A stretch of DNA of 48,344 bases, taken from positions 1 through 48,344 of IMG/VR virus record IMGVR_UViG_3300033149_002193; one strand, written 5' to 3'. The notes beneath the pieces were generated by a model. It ran no database searches. It had not been told where the DNA came from and saw only the letters and a program-made list of their open reading frames with translations. Shown in pieces: positions 3,155 through 47,939 of this stretch. Numbering within the stretch: position 1 is the stretch's first letter; each line of letters begins with the position of its first letter. The DNA is from a virus. The position numbers were made by a program, and so were the translations under genes.

Positions 3155-3553
3155 ATGTCAAAAGAACTCATTACCGCACGTTACACTGTTAAGGACGCAG
3201 AAGGCAATGTGGAAAAGGACGCCGAGGGTAAGGCGGTTTATGCAGAATGTCAGGCTGAGTTTGACTTTGGAGACAACCTGTCTGACTTGACCGCAAAATG
3301 TGGCGAAGATGTCGTTCGTACGAACGCTATCGCCAACATGAAGGTTTCTCTCCAGTCTCGTATTCGTGCCCTGCATAAGGCCGGCCTTGACCAATCCACC
3401 CTTCAGGGCCAGATTGATCAGTGGGTACCTGGCGTCATTGCTCAGAAGGTTGCAGTTGATCCGATCGCGGCCACCATGAGTCAGTTTGCTAACTGGCCGA
3501 AAGAAAAACAGCAAGAATTCCTGGCCAAATTGCAAGGTGGTTCTGCCGAGTAA
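3155..3553 (+). CDS. Probable abundant early protein (132 aa)
   Basis: The start follows ATAAGGAGAAAATC. The 132-residue product opens with a beta-rich part (residues 5-40) leading to FDFGDNLSDL, then a helical part with EDVVRTNAIANMKVSLQSRIRAL. This FDFG-then-helix layout recurs in small phage proteins whose function I cannot state. The protein at 46087 shows a similar order (IDFEGITVGQL, then KDLVIRRQAVERKL). The gene has its own promoter and terminator and is richer in G and C at third codon positions than its neighbours. Those traits suggest strong expression. A nucleic-acid-binding role is possible but not shown. Confidence 0.75.
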   Translation: MSKELITARYTVKDAEGNVEKDAEGKAVYAECQAEFDFGDNLSDLTAKCGEDVVRTNAIANMKVSLQSRIRALHKAGLDQSTLQGQIDQWVPGVIAQKVAVDPIAATMSQFANWPKEKQQEFLAKLQGGSAE

Positions 3554-8158: not shown

Positions 8159-8587
8159 ATGAGCTTTTTGGATGTAGACACTACTGATGCAATCGAACCC
8201 CAGGCAGTCGCAGGTGATAAAGAGTACAAAATTCGCATAGTTGGTTTCATCGAGAAACCGGATGAGGAGACTGGTGAACTGCAAAAGATCTGGATGACCA
8301 GGACCGGAAAACCTTGCTTCATGCCCATCTTTGAAATCCCTGATGAGCCGACCAGTAAGGAGTTTAACACTTATGTCGGCCTCCCGCATGATGATATGAC
8401 GGACAAGGAGAAGAATAATGCCTTATGGGCACTGGAATCCTTCAAGCGTTGCTTCTCTGTACCGGACGGAAGGATTGATCTTGAAGATGTTATCGGTAAT
8501 GAGGGTTGGGCTATCATAGGATTGAAAGAAGATCCTGAGTACGGAGAACAAAACTACATTAAGAAGTTGATTGTTCCTAAACGTTAA
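8159..8587 (+). CDS. DUF669-like single-strand DNA-binding candidate
   Basis: The 142-residue acidic protein begins MSFLDVDTTDAIEP. It continues with beta segments (EYKIRIVGF, CFMPIFEIP) and ends with NYIKKLIVPKR. The general layout and its place next to a Sak4-like ATPase fit the DUF669 family, which works as a phage ssDNA-binding partner for recombinases. The assignment rests on layout and context. A strong AATAAGGAGAACAAT site precedes it. Like the 3155 gene it is richer in G and C at third codon positions than its neighbours, suggesting high expression. Confidence 0.65.
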   Translation: MSFLDVDTTDAIEPQAVAGDKEYKIRIVGFIEKPDEETGELQKIWMTRTGKPCFMPIFEIPDEPTSKEFNTYVGLPHDDMTDKEKNNALWALESFKRCFSVPDGRIDLEDVIGNEGWAIIGLKEDPEYGEQNYIKKLIVPKR

Positions 8588-8630: not shown

Positions 8631-9107
8631 ATGCAAGAAATTTGGAAAACAGTTCCAAGATATCCTGATTGTGAAGTTTCTAATGCTGGAAGGGTTAGGT
8701 ATAAAGCACATATAAAACCTCCGATAAAGGGTACTACTAATGGACTACATGAACGTACTCAGCATAAAAATAGAGGTGGTTATCACAGTGTTAATATCTG
8801 TGGCAAAAAAGAGTTTGTCCATGTTTTAGTAATAGAATCTTTTATTGGTGCAAGACCTGTGGGTAACGTTTGCGATCATATTAATAAGAATCCTGCAGAT
8901 AACAACGTTAAGAACTTAAGATGGATTCCGGCTGGAACTAATCTGAAAAGGAGTAATGTAGGAAGTCCAGTTAAATTTAATACTGATAAAATGCAGAAAA
9001 TTAAAGACCTTTATAAACAAGGTTTTACACAAAGAGTTATCGCTATAAAATTTAATTGCAGTCAGGGTACAATATCTAATGTTATTAGAGGAAAGTTTGC
9101 TTACTAA
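8631..9107 (+). CDS. NUMOD4-HNH homing endonuclease (158 aa)
   Basis: The N-terminus (EIWKTVPRYPDCEVSNAGRVR) is the NUMOD4 DNA-binding module. It is followed by an HNH_3 core containing GGYHSVNI, HVLVIESFIG, VCDHINKNPADNNVKNLRW and NLKRSN. A C-terminal helix-turn-helix (GFTQRVIAIKFNCSQGTISNVI) completes the protein, as in typical free-standing phage homing endonucleases. It makes a site-specific break in a related genome lacking the gene and spreads by repair. Palindrome copy 4 and a terminator follow. A 5' fragment of a related gene is found at 11234. Confidence 0.9.
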   Translation: MQEIWKTVPRYPDCEVSNAGRVRYKAHIKPPIKGTTNGLHERTQHKNRGGYHSVNICGKKEFVHVLVIESFIGARPVGNVCDHINKNPADNNVKNLRWIPAGTNLKRSNVGSPVKFNTDKMQKIKDLYKQGFTQRVIAIKFNCSQGTISNVIRGKFAY

Positions 9108-9116
9108 TCGTTAATT

Positions 9117-9143
9117 TGCTACGTTCATAAAATGAATATAGCA
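9117..9143. repeat. Dispersed palindrome, copy 4
   Basis: TTGCTACGTTCA and TGAATATAGCA flank a TAAAA centre. It lies between the stop of the homing endonuclease and an intrinsic terminator. Confidence 0.8.
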
Positions 9144-9921: not shown

Positions 9922-11234
9922 TTAAAATATCACTCAGTGAAATAGAGTTTGGTGAAAGGTTTAGGGTTGAGTATGAGAACATAGATATGCTGGCAGAGAG
10001 TATTCGCTCAACTGGAAATCTCCAACTGATCTCTGTTAGTGTAAACCCTGAGAAGGAAGGTAAACCTTATCTCTTAGCTGTTGGTGGTAGGAGGTTTAAA
10101 GCCTTTGAATACCTCAATAAGCACTATGATGAAACGTATAAAGAGATCCAAGTCTGCTTCTATAACAAGGTACTCACCGAGTTGGAAAGGCGAAGTATTG
10201 AAGCGGCTGAAAATATTGAAAGGGAGAACTTTACCTACGCCGAGGAATGTGCTATTCTTAAGCACGTACATGATCTTCAGACCAGTATCCACGGCGAGAA
10301 GGTTGCGAAGACAGCAGACGCTCCTGGATGGAGTAAGAGTGATACTGCTAAGATGGTGGGTAAAAGTGCTGCTACAATTAGTCAGGATATAGAATTGGCT
10401 GATGCTATTGAGAAGTATCCTGAGCTTCAACTGGATAAGGCCAAGAATAAGTCTGATGCTAGGAAACGGCTTAAGAAGGCGCAAGATCTCCTGATGAAGC
10501 AGGAACTGGCCCGTAATTATGCTAATACCATTGGTAACAACGATGCGGTTAAGCAGAAGTTAATCAACTCATACATCGTCAAAGACTTTTTCGAAGGGGT
10601 TAAGACTGTACCTGATGGTTCCATTGATCTGGTTGAGATTGATCCACCATATGCTATTAACCTTAAGAAGAATAAGAAAGAAAATTCTTGCTACGGTTAC
10701 AATGAGGTTGATCTGAATGACTATGAAGAGTTCATGCGATCAACTCTTATTGAGACCGAAAGGGTTTTAAAATATTCTGGTTGGGTAATTCTCTGGTTTG
10801 CTCCTGAACCATGGTTTGAAGTAATGTTTAAACTTCTTGAAGAGGTCGGACTTAAAGCTACTCGTATGTGTGGTGTTTGGATGAAGGGGTCTGGTCAGTC
10901 TATGCAGCCTCAGCATCGGCTTGCTAACTCGTATGAGATGTTCTTTTATGCTACTAAAGGCAAACCTCATTTGGCAAAACCTGGAAGTACTAACCAGTTT
11001 GTTTACCCACCTATCCCTCACACCCAGAAAATTCATCCTACAGAACGGCCTACTGAGTTAATTGAAGATATAATAACTACATTTGTTCGGCCTGGCAGTC
11101 AAATAATGGTTCCTTTTCTAGGAAGTGGTAAAACTATTACCGCCGCACATAAGGTTAATGTAAATGCCTTTGGATTCGAAATTACTCAGTCATATAAGAA
11201 TAGTTTTATTATAAAAGTTCAAGAGGAGTTTTAA
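9912..11234 (+). CDS. ParB-like domain fused to an adenine/cytosine-N4 DNA methyltransferase
   Basis: The 440-residue product starts with a ParB/sulfiredoxin-type domain (about residues 1-110) with the GGRR signature near residues 58-61. A helix-turn-helix region follows (WSKSDTAKMVGKSAATISQDIELADAI, about residues 140-165). The C-terminal half is an amino-methyltransferase with DPPY near residue 244 and the AdoMet-binding FLGSG near residue 402, the order typical of beta-class enzymes. It probably methylates N6-adenine or N4-cytosine in DNA and is targeted by the ParB and HTH parts. Likely roles are protection from host restriction or control of phage DNA. The target site is unknown. Confidence 0.88.
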   Translation: MQLIKISLSEIEFGERFRVEYENIDMLAESIRSTGNLQLISVSVNPEKEGKPYLLAVGGRRFKAFEYLNKHYDETYKEIQVCFYNKVLTELERRSIEAAENIERENFTYAEECAILKHVHDLQTSIHGEKVAKTADAPGWSKSDTAKMVGKSAATISQDIELADAIEKYPELQLDKAKNKSDARKRLKKAQDLLMKQELARNYANTIGNNDAVKQKLINSYIVKDFFEGVKTVPDGSIDLVEIDPPYAINLKKNKKENSCYGYNEVDLNDYEEFMRSTLIETERVLKYSGWVILWFAPEPWFEVMFKLLEEVGLKATRMCGVWMKGSGQSMQPQHRLANSYEMFFYATKGKPHLAKPGSTNQFVYPPIPHTQKIHPTERPTELIEDIITTFVRPGSQIMVPFLGSGKTITAAHKVNVNAFGFEITQSYKNSFIIKVQEEF

Positions 11235-11419
11235 TGAAAGAAATATGGAAAACTATACCTAGATATCCTGATTGCGAAGCATCTAATTTAGGTAATGTTA
11301 GATATAAAGAAGGATGTGTTCCGGCTAAGTGCTATACTGGTCGATATAGACCAAAACATAAAAGTAATGTTGGATATTTCAATGTCCGTATTTGCTCTAA
11401 AGTAGAATTAATCCATTAA
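11234..11419 (+). pseudogene. 5' remnant of a NUMOD4-HNH homing endonuclease
   Basis: The 61-codon frame starts EIWKTIPRYPDCEASNLGNVRY. It matches the first third of the endonuclease at 8631, including GYFNVRICSKVELIH against GYHSVNICGKKEFVH. It stops exactly where the HNH core should begin. The nuclease catalytic part and HTH are missing, so only the NUMOD4 DNA-binding module could be made. The start overlaps the stop of the methyltransferase gene. It is a decayed copy left by an old homing event, or less likely a kept DNA-binding fragment. Confidence 0.75.
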
Positions 11420-13598: not shown

Positions 13599-16112
13599 AT
13601 GTTTAAAGAAATGAGGCGTAGGAAGAAAACCTTCATCTCACCGAGGGCAGGTACTGATTGCATTAAGTATGTGATTGTAGGTGAGCAGCCTGGTAGAAGG
13701 GAGATTGTTTTAGGTAAGCCTTTCGTCGGGCCAGCGGGGGAGGAACTTGATGATAGTTTAAGGAATGCAAAACTGGTTAAGAGTGAAGGGTACTTTACAA
13801 ATGTTATTAAAGATCTTGATAAACCCCTTGAGCATTACATAGAGTTTACCCGTAAAGGACCAGTGGTTTATCCTGAGGGGCAGGATTATATTAATCTTCT
13901 GGCGAAGGAACTTAATGCGATTAAACCTGATGTGGTCATTGCTTTGGGTAATGTTGCTCTGTTTGCCCTAACAGATCGTATGGGAATTACTAAGTGGAGA
14001 GGAAGTATTCTTAAATCAACTCTCTGTCCAAGCAAGACAGTAATTCCTACATTCCATCCTGCTACTGTAATCAGACCGAAGAATCAGTATCTTAATAAGC
14101 ACTGTATTCTATTTGATCTGAAGCGGGCAAAGAGTATTATTGAAGGTACTTACGAACCAACGGAACGTAAGCTTATCACTGGCCCTGGTTATTACGATAG
14201 TTTAAACTTTCTTGATGATTGTATGGTATTAGGAAGTAAAGGTCAACCCATCAGTTATGATATTGAGATTAGTAACATGGAGGTTAGTTGTATCTCATTC
14301 TCATATCAGTTAAAAAGTATTTGTATTCCATTCATAGATGGTAATGGTGATTATTTTACAGTTGAACAGGAAGCAGACATATGGAGAAAGATTGCTCAAC
14401 TCCTTGAAGATGAACATATTACTAAAGTCGGCCAGAACTTAACGTTCGACGTACACTTTCTCCTTAGAAAGTTTGGCATCGCCGCTAAAAATCTCCAAGA
14501 TACAATGATCAAGCAACGCATCCTCATGCCTGAGTTTAAGATTGGCCTTGACTTCATTACCTCAGTATGGACTGATCATCCTTATTACAAAGAAGACGGT
14601 AAGTTCTGGCTTGAAAAGGCAAGTCATGGTAGTTGGGTTCGGGGCTGGGAGTACAATGCTATTGACTCAATCATCTGTGATGAAGCCAGTCCTAAACAAG
14701 ATGATGCGTTGGTTAAGCAAGGGAATATGGATACTTATAACCGTTCAAGAAGGATTATTCTTCCCCTTGTATATATGATGGAGCGGGGTATCAAGATTAA
14801 TGTTAAAGCAATGGCGCGTGACTATAAGAAAATGGGAGAAGCGATCAATGAGATGGAACTTGAACTTAACCGTCTCGCAAGTCAACCCCTTAATGCTAAG
14901 TCACCCAAGCAGCTTAAGGATTACTTTTATAAAAAGTGCGGACTTAAACCTTATAAGAAAAAAGGTAAACCTTCTACTGATGAAATGGCTATGAAGCGAA
15001 TTAGTAGGTTAGGTTATCCTGAAGCCGCACAAGTACTTAAAATCCGTGGAGCGACAAAGGAAAGGAGTACATATCTGGATGTTGAAAAGGTTGATAAAGA
15101 TGAGAGGATGCGTTGTTCATATAACCCTGCGGGGACAAGGTTCAGTCGTCTTAGTTCGAGTGTAAGTATTTTTGGAACTGGGAATAACATGCAGAACCAG
15201 CCGCATCATATTCTTAAATACTTTTACGCAGACCCAGGCTACATTGTCTATGAAATTGACTTAAGTCAGGCCGAGAACAGGATCGTTGCTTACGTTGGCC
15301 GCATTGATCCTATGATTGAGGCCTTTGAAACTGGTAAGGATGTTCATTCTTTAACTGGCGCACTTATTAGTGGGAAAACACCTGAGGAAATTAAGTGGGA
15401 GAATGATCATGATATCTTTTGTTCTTTAGGAAGTGGAGATAAAACCTGGAGGATGTGGGGAAAGCGTGGAAATCACGGCTTGAACTACGATCTTGGTTAT
15501 CGACAGTTTGCTTTGTACTATGAAATCCCAGAGTCACAAGGTAAAGTAATTGTTAACCGCTATCATATGGCGTATCCTGGAGTACGTCAGAACTTCCATT
15601 CTTATGTTAAGCAAAACTTAATTAAGAACCGAACCCTTACCAACTTAATGGGAAGGAAAACTCTCTTCCTTGGTGACCTTAAGGATCAGCGCCAAAGAGA
15701 TCAAGTCTTTAAGGAGGCTTATGCTTGTATTCCTCAAGGAACGGTGGGTGATCTTATCAACGAAAGGGGAATGAATTTCGTTTATTACCAGCATGGGTTT
15801 GAGGAACTTGAACTCATAATGCAAGTTCATGACTCAATTAAGTTTCAGATTCCCATAAGTATTGGGTGGAAGAGACATGCTGAAATGCTTATTAGAATCA
15901 AGCAGTCACTTGAGATTCCATTGGTCACTCATTACGGTCGTGAGTTTGTGGTCCCTGCTGACCTTAGCATAGGTTACTGCCTTGATGCTTCGCAGATGAA
16001 GGAGCTTAAGGGTAAGGCATTCAGTGAGAATGTGAGTGAACTTTCTGATAGACTTGAGCAGGTTAGTGAGAATCTTCGGCCAATGAAAGACTTTAAATTT
16101 ATGTGGGAGTAA
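13599..16112 (+). CDS. Uracil-DNA-glycosylase / 3'-5' exonuclease / family A DNA polymerase fusion
   Basis: The 837-residue product is the replicative polymerase. Residues about 20-190 form a uracil-DNA-glycosylase domain (GEQPGRRE near 27, KPFVGPAG, HPATV near 152). Residues about 215-400 are a proofreading exonuclease (YDIEIS near 220, NLTFDVHFL, YNAID). The rest is polymerase A: motif A DLSQAENRI near 554, motif B KRGNHGLNYDLGY near 621, motif C VHDS near 743. All key residues seem present. A UDG domain joined to a phage polymerase I is known from SPO1-like phages, but the role of the pairing is not settled. AAGGAGG, touching palindrome copy 5, sets the start. Confidence 0.93.
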   Translation: MFKEMRRRKKTFISPRAGTDCIKYVIVGEQPGRREIVLGKPFVGPAGEELDDSLRNAKLVKSEGYFTNVIKDLDKPLEHYIEFTRKGPVVYPEGQDYINLLAKELNAIKPDVVIALGNVALFALTDRMGITKWRGSILKSTLCPSKTVIPTFHPATVIRPKNQYLNKHCILFDLKRAKSIIEGTYEPTERKLITGPGYYDSLNFLDDCMVLGSKGQPISYDIEISNMEVSCISFSYQLKSICIPFIDGNGDYFTVEQEADIWRKIAQLLEDEHITKVGQNLTFDVHFLLRKFGIAAKNLQDTMIKQRILMPEFKIGLDFITSVWTDHPYYKEDGKFWLEKASHGSWVRGWEYNAIDSIICDEASPKQDDALVKQGNMDTYNRSRRIILPLVYMMERGIKINVKAMARDYKKMGEAINEMELELNRLASQPLNAKSPKQLKDYFYKKCGLKPYKKKGKPSTDEMAMKRISRLGYPEAAQVLKIRGATKERSTYLDVEKVDKDERMRCSYNPAGTRFSRLSSSVSIFGTGNNMQNQPHHILKYFYADPGYIVYEIDLSQAENRIVAYVGRIDPMIEAFETGKDVHSLTGALISGKTPEEIKWENDHDIFCSLGSGDKTWRMWGKRGNHGLNYDLGYRQFALYYEIPESQGKVIVNRYHMAYPGVRQNFHSYVKQNLIKNRTLTNLMGRKTLFLGDLKDQRQRDQVFKEAYACIPQGTVGDLINERGMNFVYYQHGFEELELIMQVHDSIKFQIPISIGWKRHAEMLIRIKQSLEIPLVTHYGREFVVPADLSIGYCLDASQMKELKGKAFSENVSELSDRLEQVSENLRPMKDFKFMWE

Positions 16113-16227: not shown

Positions 16228-17148
16228 ATGATTAGGCTTGCTAAAGGAGTTGAAGCAATGAAAAACATTAAACCATTAGAATGGATTTGGGAACCTTTAA
16301 TACCTCGTAGTAGTGTATCAATACTAGCTTCACGTGGAGGTGTAGGTAAGAGTGGGTTTGCTTTATGGCTTGCAGATAAGTTAGCAGGAAAGGGTAAGAA
16401 TATTCTTTACATTGATGCCGAACGCTGTGGTTATCATATTAAACAACGGTCAGAGGATTGGGCACTTAAGCATTTAGATAAAATAATGTTTACAATCTCT
16501 GACTTGGCTGATGGATCAAGCCAAACAGCCGCGCCAAATACTTTAATTGAGCTATATAACATAATTAAAGAATGCGATCCATCTCCAGATTTAGTTATAT
16601 TAGATTCTCTTACTATTTTTGCTAGAGGATTAGATACTAATAGACGTGATATCATGGCAACATATTTTGAAGAGATGACAAAGATTGCAGTTGAGTGTGA
16701 TACTGGTATTCTTATGCTTGCACATACTAAGAAACGACAGTCTCCTGATGATGCTCTTAATCTTGATTCTGTGGCTGGAAGTGGAGCCATTACAGATTTA
16801 GTTCGATCTGTAATGATTATGGATTTTGATGCTGGAGAGAATGGTAGAATTATTACCCAGCAAAAACTTAACTTAACCGCTAAAGCAAAACCGCTCACAT
16901 TTAAAATAACGGCTACGGGCATTATAGATGTTAGCTTTATGGAAAATCTTTCAAGATCAACTGGAACTAAAGCAGATAACTTTCGTACAATAGCAATAAC
17001 ACTATTAAAAGATGGTTACAGTAAGAAGGAGGTTAGATCATCATTAAAGCTTGAAGGTGCAACACCTGTTGAGTATGGTCGTGCGATAGATTGGGCTAGT
17101 GAAAAATTAAAGATTAAATGGGATAATGATATTAGACAAGATAGCTAA
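16228..17148 (+). CDS. RepA-like RecA-fold replicative helicase ATPase
   Basis: The 306-residue product has Walker A SRGGVGKS (residues 35-42), LYIDAE after the next strand and Walker B LVILDSL (about residues 125-131). A LMLAHTKK segment follows and then GSGAITDLVRSVMIM. This is the AAA_25/RepA type of hexameric DNA helicase or replication ATPase. It likely unwinds DNA ahead of the family A polymerase. The start at 16228 follows AACGGAGAATTAAAG; a second ATG at 16258 is possible. The gene is the first after a strong promoter. Confidence 0.8.
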   Translation: MIRLAKGVEAMKNIKPLEWIWEPLIPRSSVSILASRGGVGKSGFALWLADKLAGKGKNILYIDAERCGYHIKQRSEDWALKHLDKIMFTISDLADGSSQTAAPNTLIELYNIIKECDPSPDLVILDSLTIFARGLDTNRRDIMATYFEEMTKIAVECDTGILMLAHTKKRQSPDDALNLDSVAGSGAITDLVRSVMIMDFDAGENGRIITQQKLNLTAKAKPLTFKITATGIIDVSFMENLSRSTGTKADNFRTIAITLLKDGYSKKEVRSSLKLEGATPVEYGRAIDWASEKLKIKWDNDIRQDS

Positions 17149-17157
17149 GGAAAAGGA

Positions 17158-17184
17158 TGCTACCTTCAAAATTTGAACATAGCA
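17158..17184. repeat. Dispersed palindrome, copy 6
   Basis: TGCTACCTTCA and TGAACATAGCA flank an AAATT centre. It lies between the helicase stop codon and the AAAAGGAGC ribosome binding site of the next gene. Confidence 0.85.
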
Positions 17185-17197
17185 AAAGGAGCAGCCT

Positions 17198-18382
17198 ATG
17201 TCAACACGTAAAGTAAGCGACTGGCTTGAGGGGTTCCTTGAGTACACTGACAACTCAGAACCTCCAGCTACTTTCAGAATGTGGACGGGAATAAGTACAA
17301 TCGCCAGTATGCTTAAGCGTAAGTGCTTAATCCGCTGGGGACCGATCAGGTTTTACCCAAACATATACATCATTCTCGTTTCACCTCCTGGTCAGGCCCG
17401 TAAGGGAACAGCCATGAGTTTTGGGATTGACTTCTTGATTAAGTCAGGTATTAAAATGTGTGCTGATTCAATAACTAAAGAGGCATTAGTTATGAAAATT
17501 GCTGAGGCCACAAGTACTGATATTCAAGATGATGGGACGATGAGCTTTCATAGTTCCTACACTATTGTCTCACCTGAATTAACTTCACTCTTAGGTAATG
17601 GCGATCCTCAAATGATAAGCTGGCTGACCGACTGGTTTGATTGTGGCAAGGGTGATGATGGACTTTGGGAATATGTGACTAAACATCAAGGGGAAGATCG
17701 TATTAATGGTATCTGGATTAACCTTCTCGGTGCAACAACTCCTGACTTAATAGGTAAAATTCCAGACATAATTGGATCAGGACTTAGTTCACGAATCATC
17801 TTCATTTACGAACACCGGCAGGAGAAGATTGTACCTCAACCTTTCTTAAGCAAAGCACAGAAAATATTAAAGGAGGACCTTTATCATGACTTAGAACAGA
17901 TGCAACTGATGCAGGGGGAGTTTAAACTTACTCCTGATTTCTGTGAAGTTTGGAACGAATGGTATGTGGAACAGACAACGAACCCACCTTTTAAGGATAA
18001 GCGTCTTGCTCGCTACTGTACCCGGCGTGGTACTCATGTGATGAAACTTTGCATGGTGAATAGTGCAAGTCGAAGTAATGACATGATAGTTGATGCAGGT
18101 GATCTTAAACGGGCCATAGGTTTTTTAGAGCACATTGAGACAAAGATGCCTTATACTTTTGGGAGTATGGGTGACTCACCAATGGCTAAGACGCTTAATA
18201 ACCTTATGATGGATATAGGTATGGCAGGTGAGATTACTCAATCTGAACTGTTGCAACGGCACTATTATGATATAGGTAATGCTCGCATTTTTGACGACAT
18301 GCTTTCCATTCTTGAGAAGCAAGGGTTCTGTAAGATTAGTCAGAGGAAAGGTGTTACTACAATCAAACACTCGAAGAGGTAA
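17198..18382 (+). CDS. DUF3987-like replication ATPase candidate
   Basis: The 394-residue product begins with a helical region, then WGPIRFYPNIYIILVSPPGQARKGT, where SPPGQARKGT resembles the modified P-loop of DUF3987-type phage ATPases. A segment TIVSPELTSLL could carry the second ATPase motif, and GIWINLLGATTP fits sensor-type residues. The C-terminal part looks like a winged-helix DNA-binding region. It lies next to the RepA-like ATPase and probably assists replication initiation or priming. No separate primase catalytic motif was seen. Confidence 0.6.
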   Translation: MSTRKVSDWLEGFLEYTDNSEPPATFRMWTGISTIASMLKRKCLIRWGPIRFYPNIYIILVSPPGQARKGTAMSFGIDFLIKSGIKMCADSITKEALVMKIAEATSTDIQDDGTMSFHSSYTIVSPELTSLLGNGDPQMISWLTDWFDCGKGDDGLWEYVTKHQGEDRINGIWINLLGATTPDLIGKIPDIIGSGLSSRIIFIYEHRQEKIVPQPFLSKAQKILKEDLYHDLEQMQLMQGEFKLTPDFCEVWNEWYVEQTTNPPFKDKRLARYCTRRGTHVMKLCMVNSASRSNDMIVDAGDLKRAIGFLEHIETKMPYTFGSMGDSPMAKTLNNLMMDIGMAGEITQSELLQRHYYDIGNARIFDDMLSILEKQGFCKISQRKGVTTIKHSKR

Positions 18383-32330: not shown

Positions 32331-32359
32331 TTGCTATTATCAAAAATTGAACGTAGCAA
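32331..32359. repeat. Dispersed palindrome, copy 11
   Basis: TTGCTATTATCA and TGAACGTAGCAA flank an AAAAT centre. It lies between the decoration gene and the ribosome binding site of the major capsid gene. Confidence 0.85.
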
Positions 32360-39920: not shown

Positions 39921-39947
39921 TGCTATATTCATAAAATGAACGTAGCA
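39921..39947. repeat. Dispersed palindrome, copy 13
   Basis: TGCTATATTCA and TGAACGTAGCA flank a TAAAA centre. It lies in the gap just upstream of the ribosome binding site of the 39903 gene. Confidence 0.85.
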
Positions 39948-41295: not shown

Positions 41296-43116
41296 CTATT
41301 CAAATATGATTTTAGCAAGTTTTGCTTTAAATTCTGCTAATGACTGTTTTTCATTGAAGCTAAGGTTGGGCTCGGAGGACTTAAAGACTGTCTCAAGAAG
41401 TCCGGTTGCATCCTCGAGAACAAGAACTTTACCATCGAGAAGCTGTAAGTTTAAGTTACTAATTACCAAAAGACCATCAAACTGGCCAGGAGTGAAAGTT
41501 CTAACCGCCACTTTCCCGTCAAGAAGTTTTATGGTTGTATCCTTGAGATTAATCTTACCATCCAACAGACGGGTTTTACTACTTAAGACTTCAACTGACC
41601 CATCAAGAAGATCAGAAGTACTTATGATTACATCTACTTTTCCATTGAGAAGATTAGTATCAAGAATATAGTTAACATAAACCTTACCATCAAGAAGATC
41701 AGTGGTCTTTCCTTGGATGATTACCTTCCCATCCAAAATGTCAGCATCATAAGATCCGATAACTAACTTACCGTCAAGCAATGATTGGGTTAAAGATGTA
41801 AGTTGAATCTTACCATCAACTAAATCTGTTCCATCAGTTTTAACCTGAACTTTGCCATCAATAAGATTATGCCCTTGAGTTTCAATCATAACCTTACCAT
41901 CAACTAAATCCATATTAACCAGATGAACATGAATCTTTCCATCAACCAGTTCGGCGTCATCACTTAAGACAATAACCTTACCATCAAGCAGATTTGTACC
42001 AAACTGTCGGATATTAACTTTACTATTCGCTAAAAGAATTTCCCTGATTTTAATCCAGATCTTACCATCAAGCAGTTTAGTGTCTAACTTATGGATTTCA
42101 ACTAAACCGTCAAGAAGTTGTTCCGTCCCTTCGTTTACATAAAGAAGACCATCTGCCAAATTTGTGGCCTCACTTTTGACGATTGCTTTTCCATCAAATA
42201 AGTTAGTGCCTGCAGTAATCTCCTCAATAACTGTTTTACCATCAAGTAAGTTTGTCTCCTTATTTCCAACAATTACTTTCCCATCAAAGTTTAAAGTTGC
42301 CAGATCTTTTAGTCTAACCTTACCATCAAGAAGAGATGTCTCAAAATTTCCTGTAGCTGAAGGTAAGAAAAAAACTGGTTGGCTTGTCTTCTCAAACATA
42401 GCGTAAGGTTGTTCATTAATTAAAGCAATCTGATCTTGAGAAAGTACTATATTAAAAATATAAGCATAATAAAAATCAGCTTTAAGACTTCTTTTTGATG
42501 TTAAATCATAATACGACCCTAAAAAAATTGGATCTGTACTTGTTGGTGTGGCATCCCCAATAGATGTATTTTGTGATCGTAATAAGCCGTTCACATACAA
42601 TTTAAGCGCTATATTGGTTTCCCATGTTGCCGCGAACGAAAATTTTGTAGCATTGAGGTTTATGTGTAAAACGGTATTCTCATCAACGTCGGAACCGCTG
42701 ATAACAAAAGCCAAGCGATCATCCTGCAAAGAAGTTTGCACCCACCTACTACCATCAGTTACTCTATTTGAAATAATACCTTCATCATCACCCCCTAAAT
42801 CAAAAGGTGTTAATGATGCAACTATTGACCCTATTCCTGTATGTGGCAAACAATCACCACAAGAAATATAATCATTATCACCATCAAAAAATATAGAGTT
42901 ATATGTGTATAATGGATCTCCTATAAACACCCCATGATAGTTTTTCCCACTATAATCAAAAAGTGTAGTACCTGCACCTTCCCATATAGGCATCACTAAA
43001 ACAGGCATCGGCGCACCAAGTTTATTCTCACACCAATCACGAATTGCAGAGCTTACTTGATCAGGTGGACCCCAAAGTTTAGGCTTAACTTGTGGGCGTG
43101 ATATTACAGGAAACAT
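41296..43116 (-). CDS. LamG-like domain plus 22 tandem 14-residue repeats (606 aa)
   Basis: Residues about 50-245 resemble a concanavalin/LamG-type lectin sandwich (YHGVFIGDPLY, NDYISCGD, ALKLYVNGLLRS, PIFLGSYYD). From about residue 260 to 573 the protein is built of 22 repeats with consensus LLDGKVxV plus about seven variable residues. Nearly all are exactly 14 residues, with two of 16 and one of 15. A regular period with conserved Asp-Gly-Lys suggests a beta-solenoid or fibre shaft. A short charged helix closes the protein. A virion fibre or receptor-binding role is likely but not shown. Confidence 0.75.
   Translation of the reverse strand: MFPVISRPQVKPKLWGPPDQVSSAIRDWCENKLGAPMPVLVMPIWEGAGTTLFDYSGKNYHGVFIGDPLYTYNSIFFDGDNDYISCGDCLPHTGIGSIVASLTPFDLGGDDEGIISNRVTDGSRWVQTSLQDDRLAFVISGSDVDENTVLHINLNATKFSFAATWETNIALKLYVNGLLRSQNTSIGDATPTSTDPIFLGSYYDLTSKRSLKADFYYAYIFNIVLSQDQIALINEQPYAMFEKTSQPVFFLPSATGNFETSLLDGKVRLKDLATLNFDGKVIVGNKETNLLDGKTVIEEITAGTNLFDGKAIVKSEATNLADGLLYVNEGTEQLLDGLVEIHKLDTKLLDGKIWIKIREILLANSKVNIRQFGTNLLDGKVIVLSDDAELVDGKIHVHLVNMDLVDGKVMIETQGHNLIDGKVQVKTDGTDLVDGKIQLTSLTQSLLDGKLVIGSYDADILDGKVIIQGKTTDLLDGKVYVNYILDTNLLNGKVDVIISTSDLLDGSVEVLSSKTRLLDGKINLKDTTIKLLDGKVAVRTFTPGQFDGLLVISNLNLQLLDGKVLVLEDATGLLETVFKSSEPNLSFNEKQSLAEFKAKLAKIIFE
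41398..42339 (-). repeat. Coding tandem repeat, 14-codon period
   Basis: About 22 units of 42 bases encode the LLDGKV repeats. DNA identity between units is moderate: the Asp-Gly-Lys codons stay fixed while the rest has diverged. The array is therefore old rather than freshly expanded. Confidence 0.85.
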
Positions 43117-45090: not shown

Positions 45091-45117
45091 TGCTTCTTTC
45101 AATTAATGAAGGTAGCA
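45091..45117. repeat. Dispersed palindrome, copy 15
   Basis: TGCTTCTTTCA and TGAAGGTAGCA flank an ATTAA centre. It lies in the divergent control region, upstream of the late promoter. Confidence 0.75.
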
Positions 45118-45149: not shown

Positions 45150-45230
45150 TTTAACCTAACCCCATTGTTCCGGCCTTTGTTCGCTTCGCTCACTGGCCTT
45201 CACGTCGCTGCGCGACATGCTTAGGTTAAA
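45150..45230. other. Structured non-coding element in the control region
   Basis: A perfect 10-bp stem (TTTAACCTAA at 45150-45159 with TTAGGTTAAA at 45221-45230) encloses inner pairs GGCC/GGCC (45172-45175 with 45195-45198) and GTCGC/GCGAC (45204-45208 with 45212-45216). The inner part is GC-rich. A second inverted repeat, ATTTAGA/TCTAAAT, lies just after it (about 45247-45276). This could be a small RNA, a protein-binding or packaging site, or an mRNA leader element. Confidence 0.45.
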
Positions 45231-45745: not shown

Positions 45746-45810
45746 TCGTGAAGGGCTTATCTTCTTATCACCTCATATGGGTAATGATTTTATGATGGGG
45801 AGGGTTTTTT

Positions 45811-45978
45811 ATGAAAGTATATGAGATTATTGAGATGTTGAAAAGATTTGATGGTAATGTTGAGGTTGAGTTAGGTGTTATGGATTATGAGACGGAGGAA
45901 GCGGTTTATTATGAAGTAGGAGAGGCATTTAGTTTTAAGGATTTTAATGGGATTGAAAGAGTGATCATTCGTAATTAA
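45811..45978 (+). CDS. Small acidic phage protein (55 aa)
   Basis: The ATG follows GGGGAGGGTTTTTT, and the frame runs 55 codons to TAA at 45976-45978. The product reads MKVYEIIEMLKRFDGNVEVELGVMD, then YETEEAVYYEVGEAF and IERVIIRN. This is a compact alpha-beta pattern common among short phage early proteins with no known function. It is the first gene of the plus-strand unit right of the control region. The gap 45979-46086 holds only the ribosome binding site of the next gene. Confidence 0.65.
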   Translation: MKVYEIIEMLKRFDGNVEVELGVMDYETEEAVYYEVGEAFSFKDFNGIERVIIRN

Positions 45979-46086
45979 GGGTTAAATTATGTAACCGCCC
46001 ATATGTGGTGATAAGGGGATAAGTCATTAAGGGATTGTAACCTCTAATGGTGCCATGAAGTTGAGGTAAAATGAGGAAGGTGTTAA

Positions 46087-46461
46087 ATGACGAAACTTAA
46101 TGAAGATGGTACTGTTACTGGATTGACCGTTAAGAGGGCATGGAGTACGAAGAATGAAGATGGTGATAAGGGTAAGATGAATGCTACGATTGACTTCGAG
46201 GGGATTACAGTTGGTCAGCTTGCTGAGCTTGCGAGTAAGGATTTGGTCATTAGAAGGCAAGCGGTTGAGAGGAAGTTGAGTAAGGAGGAAATCGAAGCTA
46301 ATGACGGTCAAGTTATTCATTGGAGTCAAATGGGGCTTAAGGTTAAGTCACATGCTGAGAAGTTGGCAGGGCTTGTTGCGTTAGGTATTCCGACTCAGGT
46401 TGCTGAATTAATGCTGAGTGATCCTGAGAAGGCTAAGGAGTTGATGGAGAGTATGAGTTGA
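46087..46461 (+). CDS. Small protein resembling the 3155 product in layout (124 aa)
   Basis: The start follows GAGGAAGGTGTTAA. The product opens with strands (GTVTGLTVKRAW, KMNATIDFEG), then helices (TVGQLAELASKDLVIRRQAVERKL), and a C-terminal part with GIPTQVAELMLSDPEKAKELMESM. Strand-FD/DF-helix order and the charged helix after it recall the 3155-3553 protein. Both could be distant paralogues with a shared, unknown role. Two palindrome copies follow its stop. Confidence 0.65.
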   Translation: MTKLNEDGTVTGLTVKRAWSTKNEDGDKGKMNATIDFEGITVGQLAELASKDLVIRRQAVERKLSKEEIEANDGQVIHWSQMGLKVKSHAEKLAGLVALGIPTQVAELMLSDPEKAKELMESMS

Positions 46462-46469
46462 GGTTAAGG

Positions 46470-46497
46470 TTGCTACCTTCAGTTAATGAAAGTAGCA
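46470..46497. repeat. Dispersed palindrome, copy 16
   Basis: TTGCTACCTTCA and TGAAAGTAGCA flank a GTTAA centre. It is eight bases from copy 17, the only close pair of intergenic copies. Confidence 0.8.
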
Positions 46498-46505
46498 TCA
46501 GGGCG

Positions 46506-46537
46506 GTTGCTATCATCAAAAAATGAAGGTAGCAAAC
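46506..46537. repeat. Dispersed palindrome, copy 17
   Basis: GGTTGCTATCATCA and TGAAGGTAGCAAACC flank an AAAAA centre. It stands at the left edge of the origin-like region. Confidence 0.8.
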
Positions 46538-46656
46538 CGGTGTTAAGGGTGAAATAACTTAATAAGAACCTCCTTCATGGTATCATTAGATGTTACAATT
46601 CCTCACCCTGAATCCGTGAGAATGTAGAAAGGGGTTTTATTTAATTACGGGTTTTT

Positions 46657-46963
46657 GGTGTAATTTGTAATGTGTAATTTGTCCGTTGTAATCGTATGCG
46701 GTAACCTGTAATACGGGGGGGTGGTCCATACACACCGGCGTTTTCCCACTCATCTTCCCATTTCCCTCTAAATATATCATCAACTATTTAAAAAAATATT
46801 CTTAAGAGAAAAAATTATTAGTTGAATAAATAACTAGATATATATTGAGAGAGAGGGAGAACTCTTCCCCTCATTAGGGGAGGAGAATTATATCGGTGTG
46901 TTGGGAGTGGGAGGGGGTATTACAGGATACCGGATACAATTACAATTATGATTACGATTACGC
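46657..46963. other. Origin-like region with long inverted repeat and AT-rich centre
   Basis: The left arm (46686-46718) and right arm (46913-46945) are imperfect reverse complements over about 33 bp, both built around TTGTAAT, GGTA and CCTGTAATAC. TGTAAT-type short repeats extend outward on both sides (three copies at 46658-46680 on the left, three ATTAC copies on the right). Between the arms lie a very AT-rich stretch (about 46773-46848) and a 10-bp CTCTTCCCCT/AGGGGAGGAG hairpin (46862-46885). No gene is supported between 46462 and 47107. Iterons, dyad symmetry and an AT-rich segment together suggest a replication origin. Confidence 0.5.
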
Positions 46964-47015
46964 ACAACCACCTTAATTACTTAACTAATGTTTAATTAGG
47001 TTAAGGGTCAAGGTA

Positions 47016-47044
47016 TTGACTTTGGTTTGTGGTTGTGATATGGT
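47016..47044 (+). promoter_or_regulatory. Sigma-70-type promoter of the rightmost operon
   Basis: TTGACT (47016-47021), a 17-base spacer and TATGGT (47039-47044) lie about 60 bases before the ATG at 47108. Confidence 0.65.
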
Positions 47045-47107: not shown

Positions 47108-47434
47108 ATGCAAGTTAATAGGGAAGTGTTTAAGGATAAGGCCAAAGGCTTTATTCAACTCAAGTGTAAGTTGGCATTAGGTAAGAAACGAAAAGATGAT
47201 GAAATGACTGTTGGCTTTCGTAAGGACTTTAAGGAGAAGTTCATCAGGGTGAAATTAATACAGATTGAGAATGGCCTTGATGACATATCTTCGGCGAAAT
47301 TAGGAGTCTTCTTCAAGGGTTTTGAAAATGCCCTGATGATGGAACTTGAGATTCTAACAGAGACCCTTAAAACCGGACCTTATAGTGAGAAAGTCTACTG
47401 GAAACATTTAAAAAGGGTAAAAGAAGATGATTAA
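47108..47434 (+). CDS. Basic hypothetical protein (108 aa)
   Basis: The start follows TTAGGAGATTAAACT. The 108-residue product is strongly basic in its first half (KDKAKGFIQLKCKLALGKKRKDD) and helical in its second, suggesting nucleic-acid binding. It is the first gene after the 47016 promoter and next to the origin-like region. The stop overlaps the following start by 8 bases. No family was recognised. Confidence 0.65.
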   Translation: MQVNREVFKDKAKGFIQLKCKLALGKKRKDDEMTVGFRKDFKEKFIRVKLIQIENGLDDISSAKLGVFFKGFENALMMELEILTETLKTGPYSEKVYWKHLKRVKEDD

Positions 47435-47939
47435 AAGGCCAGCAACGTTAGTTACCAGTGCCAGGGTGAGTATTACTACACTTGCGGAGTTGCATGATTA
47501 TTGGCAACGTCAAGGGGAGGACATTCTAACCCTTTCTGAACTGGTAAGGACAAGTATTGAGGGGCTAAGGGTTATCCTTGAGATGAATGACATGCTTAAT
47601 CCAATTAAGGGGTTGAGTGAAGCACGGGGATATCTCCTCAGTCAGGGCTTAGGCAGTAAGGCATTAAGAGAAGTCACTGGTAAGTCAAAGAATATTTATT
47701 TTAACCAACTCAAGATTGAACAGGATATTCATAAGAAGGAAATTAACATTGGTGAAGATTTTGATGACCAGGTACTTCAGGCCTCACTTGCACTTCAACA
47801 ACTTCAAAGTAAACGAGAGGGAGAGAAAAAAGTTCAAGAGATTGAAGATAGTGGAACATTCTCAAACACTGGCTCGGAGGGGGATAAGATGGATGTCCTC
47901 CTTGGGTCAACACCACTAACGCCTAATGAGGAGGAATAA
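47427..47939 (+). CDS. Ribbon-helix-helix-like DNA-binding candidate (170 aa)
   Basis: The N-terminal part (ARVSITTLAELHDYW, then LTLSELVRTSIEGLRVILE, about residues 12-55) has the strand-helix-helix spacing of RHH DNA-binding domains. A coiled coil and an acidic, low-complexity tail follow. It is encoded beside the origin-like region and the palindrome pair, so it could be a replication, partition or repressor-type protein acting on one of these repeats. This is inference from layout. Confidence 0.55.
   Translation: MIKRPATLVTSARVSITTLAELHDYWQRQGEDILTLSELVRTSIEGLRVILEMNDMLNPIKGLSEARGYLLSQGLGSKALREVTGKSKNIYFNQLKIEQDIHKKEINIGEDFDDQVLQASLALQQLQSKREGEKKVQEIEDSGTFSNTGSEGDKMDVLLGSTPLTPNEEE

Follow-up and report, generated by a model that had tools for sequence, protein, structure and literature searches.

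The window, which is the entire 48,344-bp virus record and has no terminal repeats, is 93% coding and holds a tailed phage that encodes a PolA-type polymerase, a helicase-like ATPase, a primase, a Sak4-like protein, a ligase, a ParB-methyltransferase fusion, a terminase, and a portal. The genes are rightward in two stretches, from about 45.8 kb to the end of the record and from its start to 18.7 kb, and leftward across 18.7-44.9 kb. Rfam and tRNA searches gave no match. The closest annotated record is Desulfofustis phage LS06-2018-MD01 (OP947158), with a terminase identity of 48.5%. Many relatives were found through the terminase, in two scans of IMG/VR and one scan of genome contigs, and their records were examined whole or as large pieces. 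The features considered here are collected in Table 1.

Table 1. Positions in the window of the features discussed in the text.
Feature	Positions	Strand	Remarks
PolA-type polymerase	13599-16112		
AAA_25 helicase-like ATPase	16228-17148		
Primase	17198-18382		
Second panhandle unit	45751-46028	+	Arms 45751-45781 / 45998-46028 around 55-aa gene 45811-45978
5' panhandle arm of gene 46087-46461	46030-46067	+	
Panhandle gene	46087-46461	+	124 aa; orphan family beside terS in relatives
Two copies of dispersed palindrome TGCTANNNTCA-n5-TGANNNTAGCA	46471-46534	.	Directly left of element
3' panhandle arm	46568-46603	+	Complementary to 46030-46067
Left arm of element	46640-46714	+	Five TGTAAT (46659, 46666, 46673, 46687, 46707) toward core; 46686-46714 near-perfect IR arm
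G-tract GGGGGGGTGG	46715-46724	+	Inner end of left arm
AT-rich core with A-tracts	46770-46849	.	Putative unwinding element
GC-rich hairpin CTCTTCCCC-TCATTA-GGGGAGGAG	about 46862-46886	.	Inside element
Right arm of element	46917-46963	-	TGTAAT 46919, 46939; GTAAT 46951, 46957; 46917-46945 near-perfect IR arm
Sigma70-like promoter TTGACT-17-TATGGT	47016-47044	+	Rightward early operon; consensus match only
RHH-like protein, 170 aa	47427-47939	+	Candidate iteron binder, by position; among early genes right of element

An earlier note on this DNA had described a 33-bp inverted repeat (IR) at 46657-46963. The repeat is real, but its ungapped part is 29 bp, with 26 of the 29 positions paired (90% complementary) and a spacer of 202 bp; the symmetry reaches beyond these arms, through the outer iterons. 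Seven TGTAAT words were found in the arms, in mirror orientation and facing inward, which agrees with the iterons described on the outer flanks. This word occurs 41 times in the window, counting both strands, and the element holds its densest cluster. The very AT-rich stretch and the GC-rich hairpin said to lie between the arms are both present, and just 0.11% of the genome is less stable than the core. Folded as single-stranded DNA, 46640-46980 gives one long interrupted hairpin at -50 kcal/mol, compared with -30 kcal/mol for shuffles (z = -5.6). When the two 200-bp sides were shuffled with their dinucleotides kept, 1 of 2000 shuffles reached the observed arm score, and the spaced-IR score of the element is 30.5, as compared with a maximum of 20.5 in the locally shuffled genome. 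The surroundings needed some adjustment: a sigma70-like promoter is present but is found about 70 bp rightward of the element, and the RHH-like gene is the second gene rightward, not the first. What had been called a tandem palindrome pair is there and consists of two copies of a palindrome that occurs 17 times in the genome.

Conservation of the arms had been named as a point on which the origin proposal could fail. The arms are conserved in architecture but not in sequence. DNA searches with the element gave no convincing match to relatives or phage records, and about 18 non-redundant relatives are built alike at the homologous place, in unrelated letters. Most relatives that hold the region have inverted arms and an AT-rich core between the small gene beside terS and the early operon, and their iterons are mostly present and point inward. 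In a scan for inverted arms at least 60 bp apart, the element ranks first among the spaced IRs of the record in G003, G004, G006, G007, G008, G009, G017, OP947158, G019, G020, G022, G024, G025, G026, G027, G028, and G032; near-duplicate records, set apart from these, also rank it first. It comes second in G001, behind the panhandle arms, and in the window the panhandle arms likewise score higher (34). In relatives, the element scores about 30-63, while the maxima after local shuffling are about 20-26. The same scan showed no IR of this kind in G005 and G021. No 120-bp stretch of the record is less stable than the element in ten relatives (G006, G008, G017, OP947158, G019, G020, G025, G026, G027, and G032), whereas in G004, G007, G009, G022, and G028 2-8% of the genome is less stable than the core. 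Repeated words fill the outer arm halves in most relatives. TGTAAT is the arm word in G025, G026, and G028 as in the window, GTAACC in G004 and G009, TATGTC in G006, and TGTCAT or TGTCAG in G020 and G017. Several relatives have TGTAAT-like words (GTAACC, TTGTAA, TGTCAT) in both arms, and G001, G007, and G008 have repeated words dissimilar to TGTAAT. The inner arms of G019, G020, and G032 have AATGGTACATTT in common, and many relatives have comparable G or C tracts. An assembly artefact was considered and ruled out, as imperfect arms occur across many independent assemblies.

Does the symmetry belong to the DNA or to a transcript? If the arms paired in RNA, the surviving mismatches would be expected to be of the G.U and not the A.C type. 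In 20 phages taken together, the arm mismatches of the element are 87 G.T, 91 A.C, and 264 others, a count that includes for G023 its panhandle pair (1 G.T, 0 A.C, and 2 others), with no change in the result. Because the mismatches have no G.T bias, we take the symmetry to be a property of the DNA. The + strand could receive transcription from upstream, and the region is AT-rich in relatives, so that one might think of a leader or terminator acting as RNA, or of chance symmetry in a low-complexity intergenic region. However, the lack of a G.U bias, unlike in the neighbouring panhandle arms, the rarity of the score among shuffles, and the return of the same build in the relatives make either of these very improbable.

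We suggest that 46640-46963 is probably the replication origin of the phage, bidirectional and of the iteron type with dyad symmetry. This is the best-supported reading of the element, given that its architecture recurs in about 18 relatives, as the leading inverted repeat and often as the least stable DNA of the genome. The dense array of a short word and the easily unwound AT-rich stretch beside it are features of iteron origins, and arrays similar to the seven TGTAAT words are found in most relatives. The polymerase, primase, and helicase-like ATPase encoded in the genome also count in favour of an origin. In the mechanism that we infer, a phage-encoded initiator would bind both iteron arrays, which face inward and consist of TGTAAT in the window and of different short words in the relatives, and would then melt the AT-rich core between them. 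The phage replisome, consisting of the PolA-type polymerase, the AAA_25 helicase-like ATPase, and the primase, would be loaded on both strands to give bidirectional replication, and transcription from the adjoining early promoter may assist the opening of the element. The GC-skew switch predicted for an origin was found at 45203, 1.6 kb left of the element. Since this minimum coincides with the switch in gene direction, GC skew does not decide the matter. No protein of this genome matched a known initiator family, and the RHH-like protein is the sole candidate. Because of its position, it is a candidate for binding the iterons. Its model is good only over about 75 N-terminal residues, where the N-terminus is predicted to be helix-helix, and the model has no significant fold match in the PDB, the best being MazE-type antitoxin chains with E above 1. 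Single-protein scans for relatives of the early proteins 47108-47434 and 47427-47939 found none.

The same RHH protein could act at the element in another way. ParR acts at parC in a comparable manner, and an RHH protein such as 47427-47939 on both iteron sides might serve segregation or repress the early promoter, with the AT-rich core as an UP-like promoter element. Of 15 genomes, 9 have a member of an RHH-like family among the early genes rightward of the element, the promoter is near, and half-sites of the dispersed palindrome lie in the inner arms of three relatives. Nevertheless, we regard such a partition or regulatory site as unlikely. The arrays are in mirror rather than tandem arrangement, the least stable DNA is the core and not the promoter, and there is no clear ParA/ParM partner, the weak ParA-like matches being to the helicase-like ATPase only. 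Furthermore, the RHH family went undetected in 6 of the 15 genomes, some of which carry the element. A packaging site (pac or cos), in which the small terminase would bind the mirror arms and cut in or near the core, is quite unlikely as well. The element is on the terS side of the genome, and 5 of 24 linear contigs (G011, L147, L008, L038, and G002) end within 800 bp of the panhandle gene on the element's side (IR-A), with about 1.3 expected and none on the other side; these ends may be either assembly failures or true ends. Yet the element is neither in nor directly beside the small terminase gene; terS, identified by homology, is 1.7 kb and two small genes away, and the element adjoins the early promoter. 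The circular assemblies G001, G006, G020, G027, and OP947158 cross the element, and it is not obvious what a melting core would do in packaging. The contig of G002 does end at the element, but the same virus appears to be assembled through it as L045, and because L045 appears to bridge it, the break in G002 is best explained as an assembly failure at the repeat. A protelomerase telomere, which is a long palindrome without a spacer that goes with a protelomerase gene, does not fit, as the arms are 202 bp apart.

An origin of the kind that we prefer for the element has counterparts elsewhere. The phage lambda ori is an iteron-type origin in which the iterons are those of the O protein. The satellite PLE of phage ICP1 has a RepA_N-type origin, and RepA_N iterons contain inverted repeats that converge on a poly-A tract (PMC7145576). 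As in these phage and satellite genomes, short repeated words adjoin AT-rich DNA, but here two entire iteron arrays are turned toward each other with the core between them, and an initiator of those families was not found. Archaeal origins have inverted ORB elements around an AT-rich region, with G-rich tracts. The inverted arrays of putative initiator sites around an AT-rich core and the G-rich tracts of the present element are a resemblance only, in view of the bacterial-type promoter, the arm words that differ in each phage, and the absence of any Orc1/Cdc6 that we could see. Nothing of this build was found in the literature searched for phage origins. For most environmental phages the origin is unknown, and sequence similarity cannot find it; here an origin-like element is recognisable by its build alone in a family without common letters, and it offers a direct test case for the coevolution of initiator and iterons.

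To the left of the element, arms of 36-38 nt pair the 5' and 3' UTRs of gene 46087-46461. Duplex scoring without a loop limit was uninformative, and a stricter scoring was used instead. When 1014 ORFs of 20 genomes were compared, and those inside or adjoining the origin-like element were set aside, the 5' and 3' flanks paired most strongly for this gene, its positional counterparts, and the 55-aa gene 45811-45978. A profile built from family members recovered most homologues of the panhandle protein. Strong arms are present in 22 of 27 entries, with positional counterparts counted in and with G002 and L045, which are the same virus, both included; elsewhere, the arms are 15 bp in OP947158, borderline in G020, and absent in G009, G019, and L147. 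The arm sequences are unrelated between homologues. The mismatches in the homologues and in four more small genes add up to 62 G.U, 5 A.C, and 21 others, unlike those of the DNA element (Fisher P = 3e-11). The element controls for strand-biased mutation in this comparison, because it is in the same skewed region. The arms covary between related phages: three comparisons gave 4, 6, and 3 double compensatory changes, and the pairs lost numbered 1, 0, and 1. For the window transcript, the stem is in both the MFE and centroid folds (z = -5.3), and the second unit has z = -4.9. In most cases the 5' arm ends upstream of the SD, a short way ahead of the start codon, and the 3' arm begins at most about 31 nt past the stop; in the window the distance is 106 nt, with two dispersed palindromes intervening. 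Two relatives, L008 and L155, have two or three panhandle units in series.

Thus, judging from these pairings, the two ends of the mRNA of gene 46087-46461 appear to pair and close it into a loop, as a conserved panhandle. A likely role would be to protect or process an autonomous mRNA, or to make translation self-limiting. In the icaR mRNA of Staphylococcus aureus, pairing of the 5' and 3' UTRs, through a short UCCCCUG/SD motif, blocks translation and yields an RNase III substrate (PMC3868564). Here too the UTRs of one mRNA pair, but the duplex is mostly 20-38 nt, lies mostly upstream of the SD, and is kept across the phage family in unrelated sequence; with the 5' arm ending upstream of the SD in most genes, the SD is not sequestered as in icaR. 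Within the literature searched, this is an unusual way to build an mRNA; the evolutionary evidence for it is strong, and testing it would be easy. The protein had no match of note in Pfam or PHROG, and its model (pLDDT 89.7) had no significant fold match in the PDB or among viral models. A single-protein scan gave no relatives, alignment scans returned just the records known already, and two homologues had no match among phage isolate records. The 132-aa early protein 3155-3553, of a family in 11 of 15 genomes, has a profile E of 0.002 with the panhandle protein and is possibly its paralogue.

The palindrome TGCTANNNTCA-n5-TGANNNTAGCA has 13 of its 17 copies in the window between genes (for example 2307-2333, 9117-9143, 17158-17184, 32332-32358, 39921-39947, 45091-45117, 46471-46497, and 46508-46534), while shuffled sequence has 1-4 copies. 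Its arms are often unlike each other at one fixed position. Each of seven relatives examined has its own palindrome family of about 8-15 copies, such as GCTATGTCCCAAATTGGGACATAGC in OP947158 and CTATGGTAAA...TTTACCATAG in G001. Inside-out half-sites flank the origin-like core in G001 (40610/40728), G006 (41804/41984), and G007 (14257/14376), where 0.11-0.27 half-sites are expected per element and the second site follows partly from the symmetry; the element of the window has no half-site inside. If this is a true association, one protein could connect the start of replication with sites across the genome. Mycobacteriophage stoperators are located in short intergenic gaps. They are many copies of one site across the phage genome, asymmetric and bound by a monomeric repressor (PMC9283540). 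The dispersed palindromes too are many copies of one site genome-wide, mostly between genes, but they are about 25 bp long and palindromic, and nothing matching them was found in the literature searched for dispersed phage palindromes. Tentatively, we put forward that these parts may form an undescribed phage module: a mirror-iteron origin in which the letters are wholly turned over from phage to phage and the build is kept, bounded in some phages by inside-out half-sites of the phage's own dispersed palindrome, with one to three adjoining panhandle genes that have long, coevolving UTR duplexes. This is possible rather than likely. The panhandle genes may serve the origin.

A few further features of these genomes were observed. 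The 142-aa protein 8159-8587 belongs to a family present in 14 of 15 genomes and presumably resembles phage DUF669-type ssDNA-binding proteins. Gene 41296-43116, for a 606-aa protein of unknown function, has repeats with a 42-nt period at 41627-42340. The relatives L155, L156, and L157 are contigs of about 49-51 kb inside MAGs labelled Nanohaloarchaea, WOR-3, and Nitrospirae, a placement that is perhaps due to mis-binning. The start of an HNH endonuclease gene is duplicated, at 8631-8706 and 11234-11309, with 79% identity over 76 nt, and the second copy is short.
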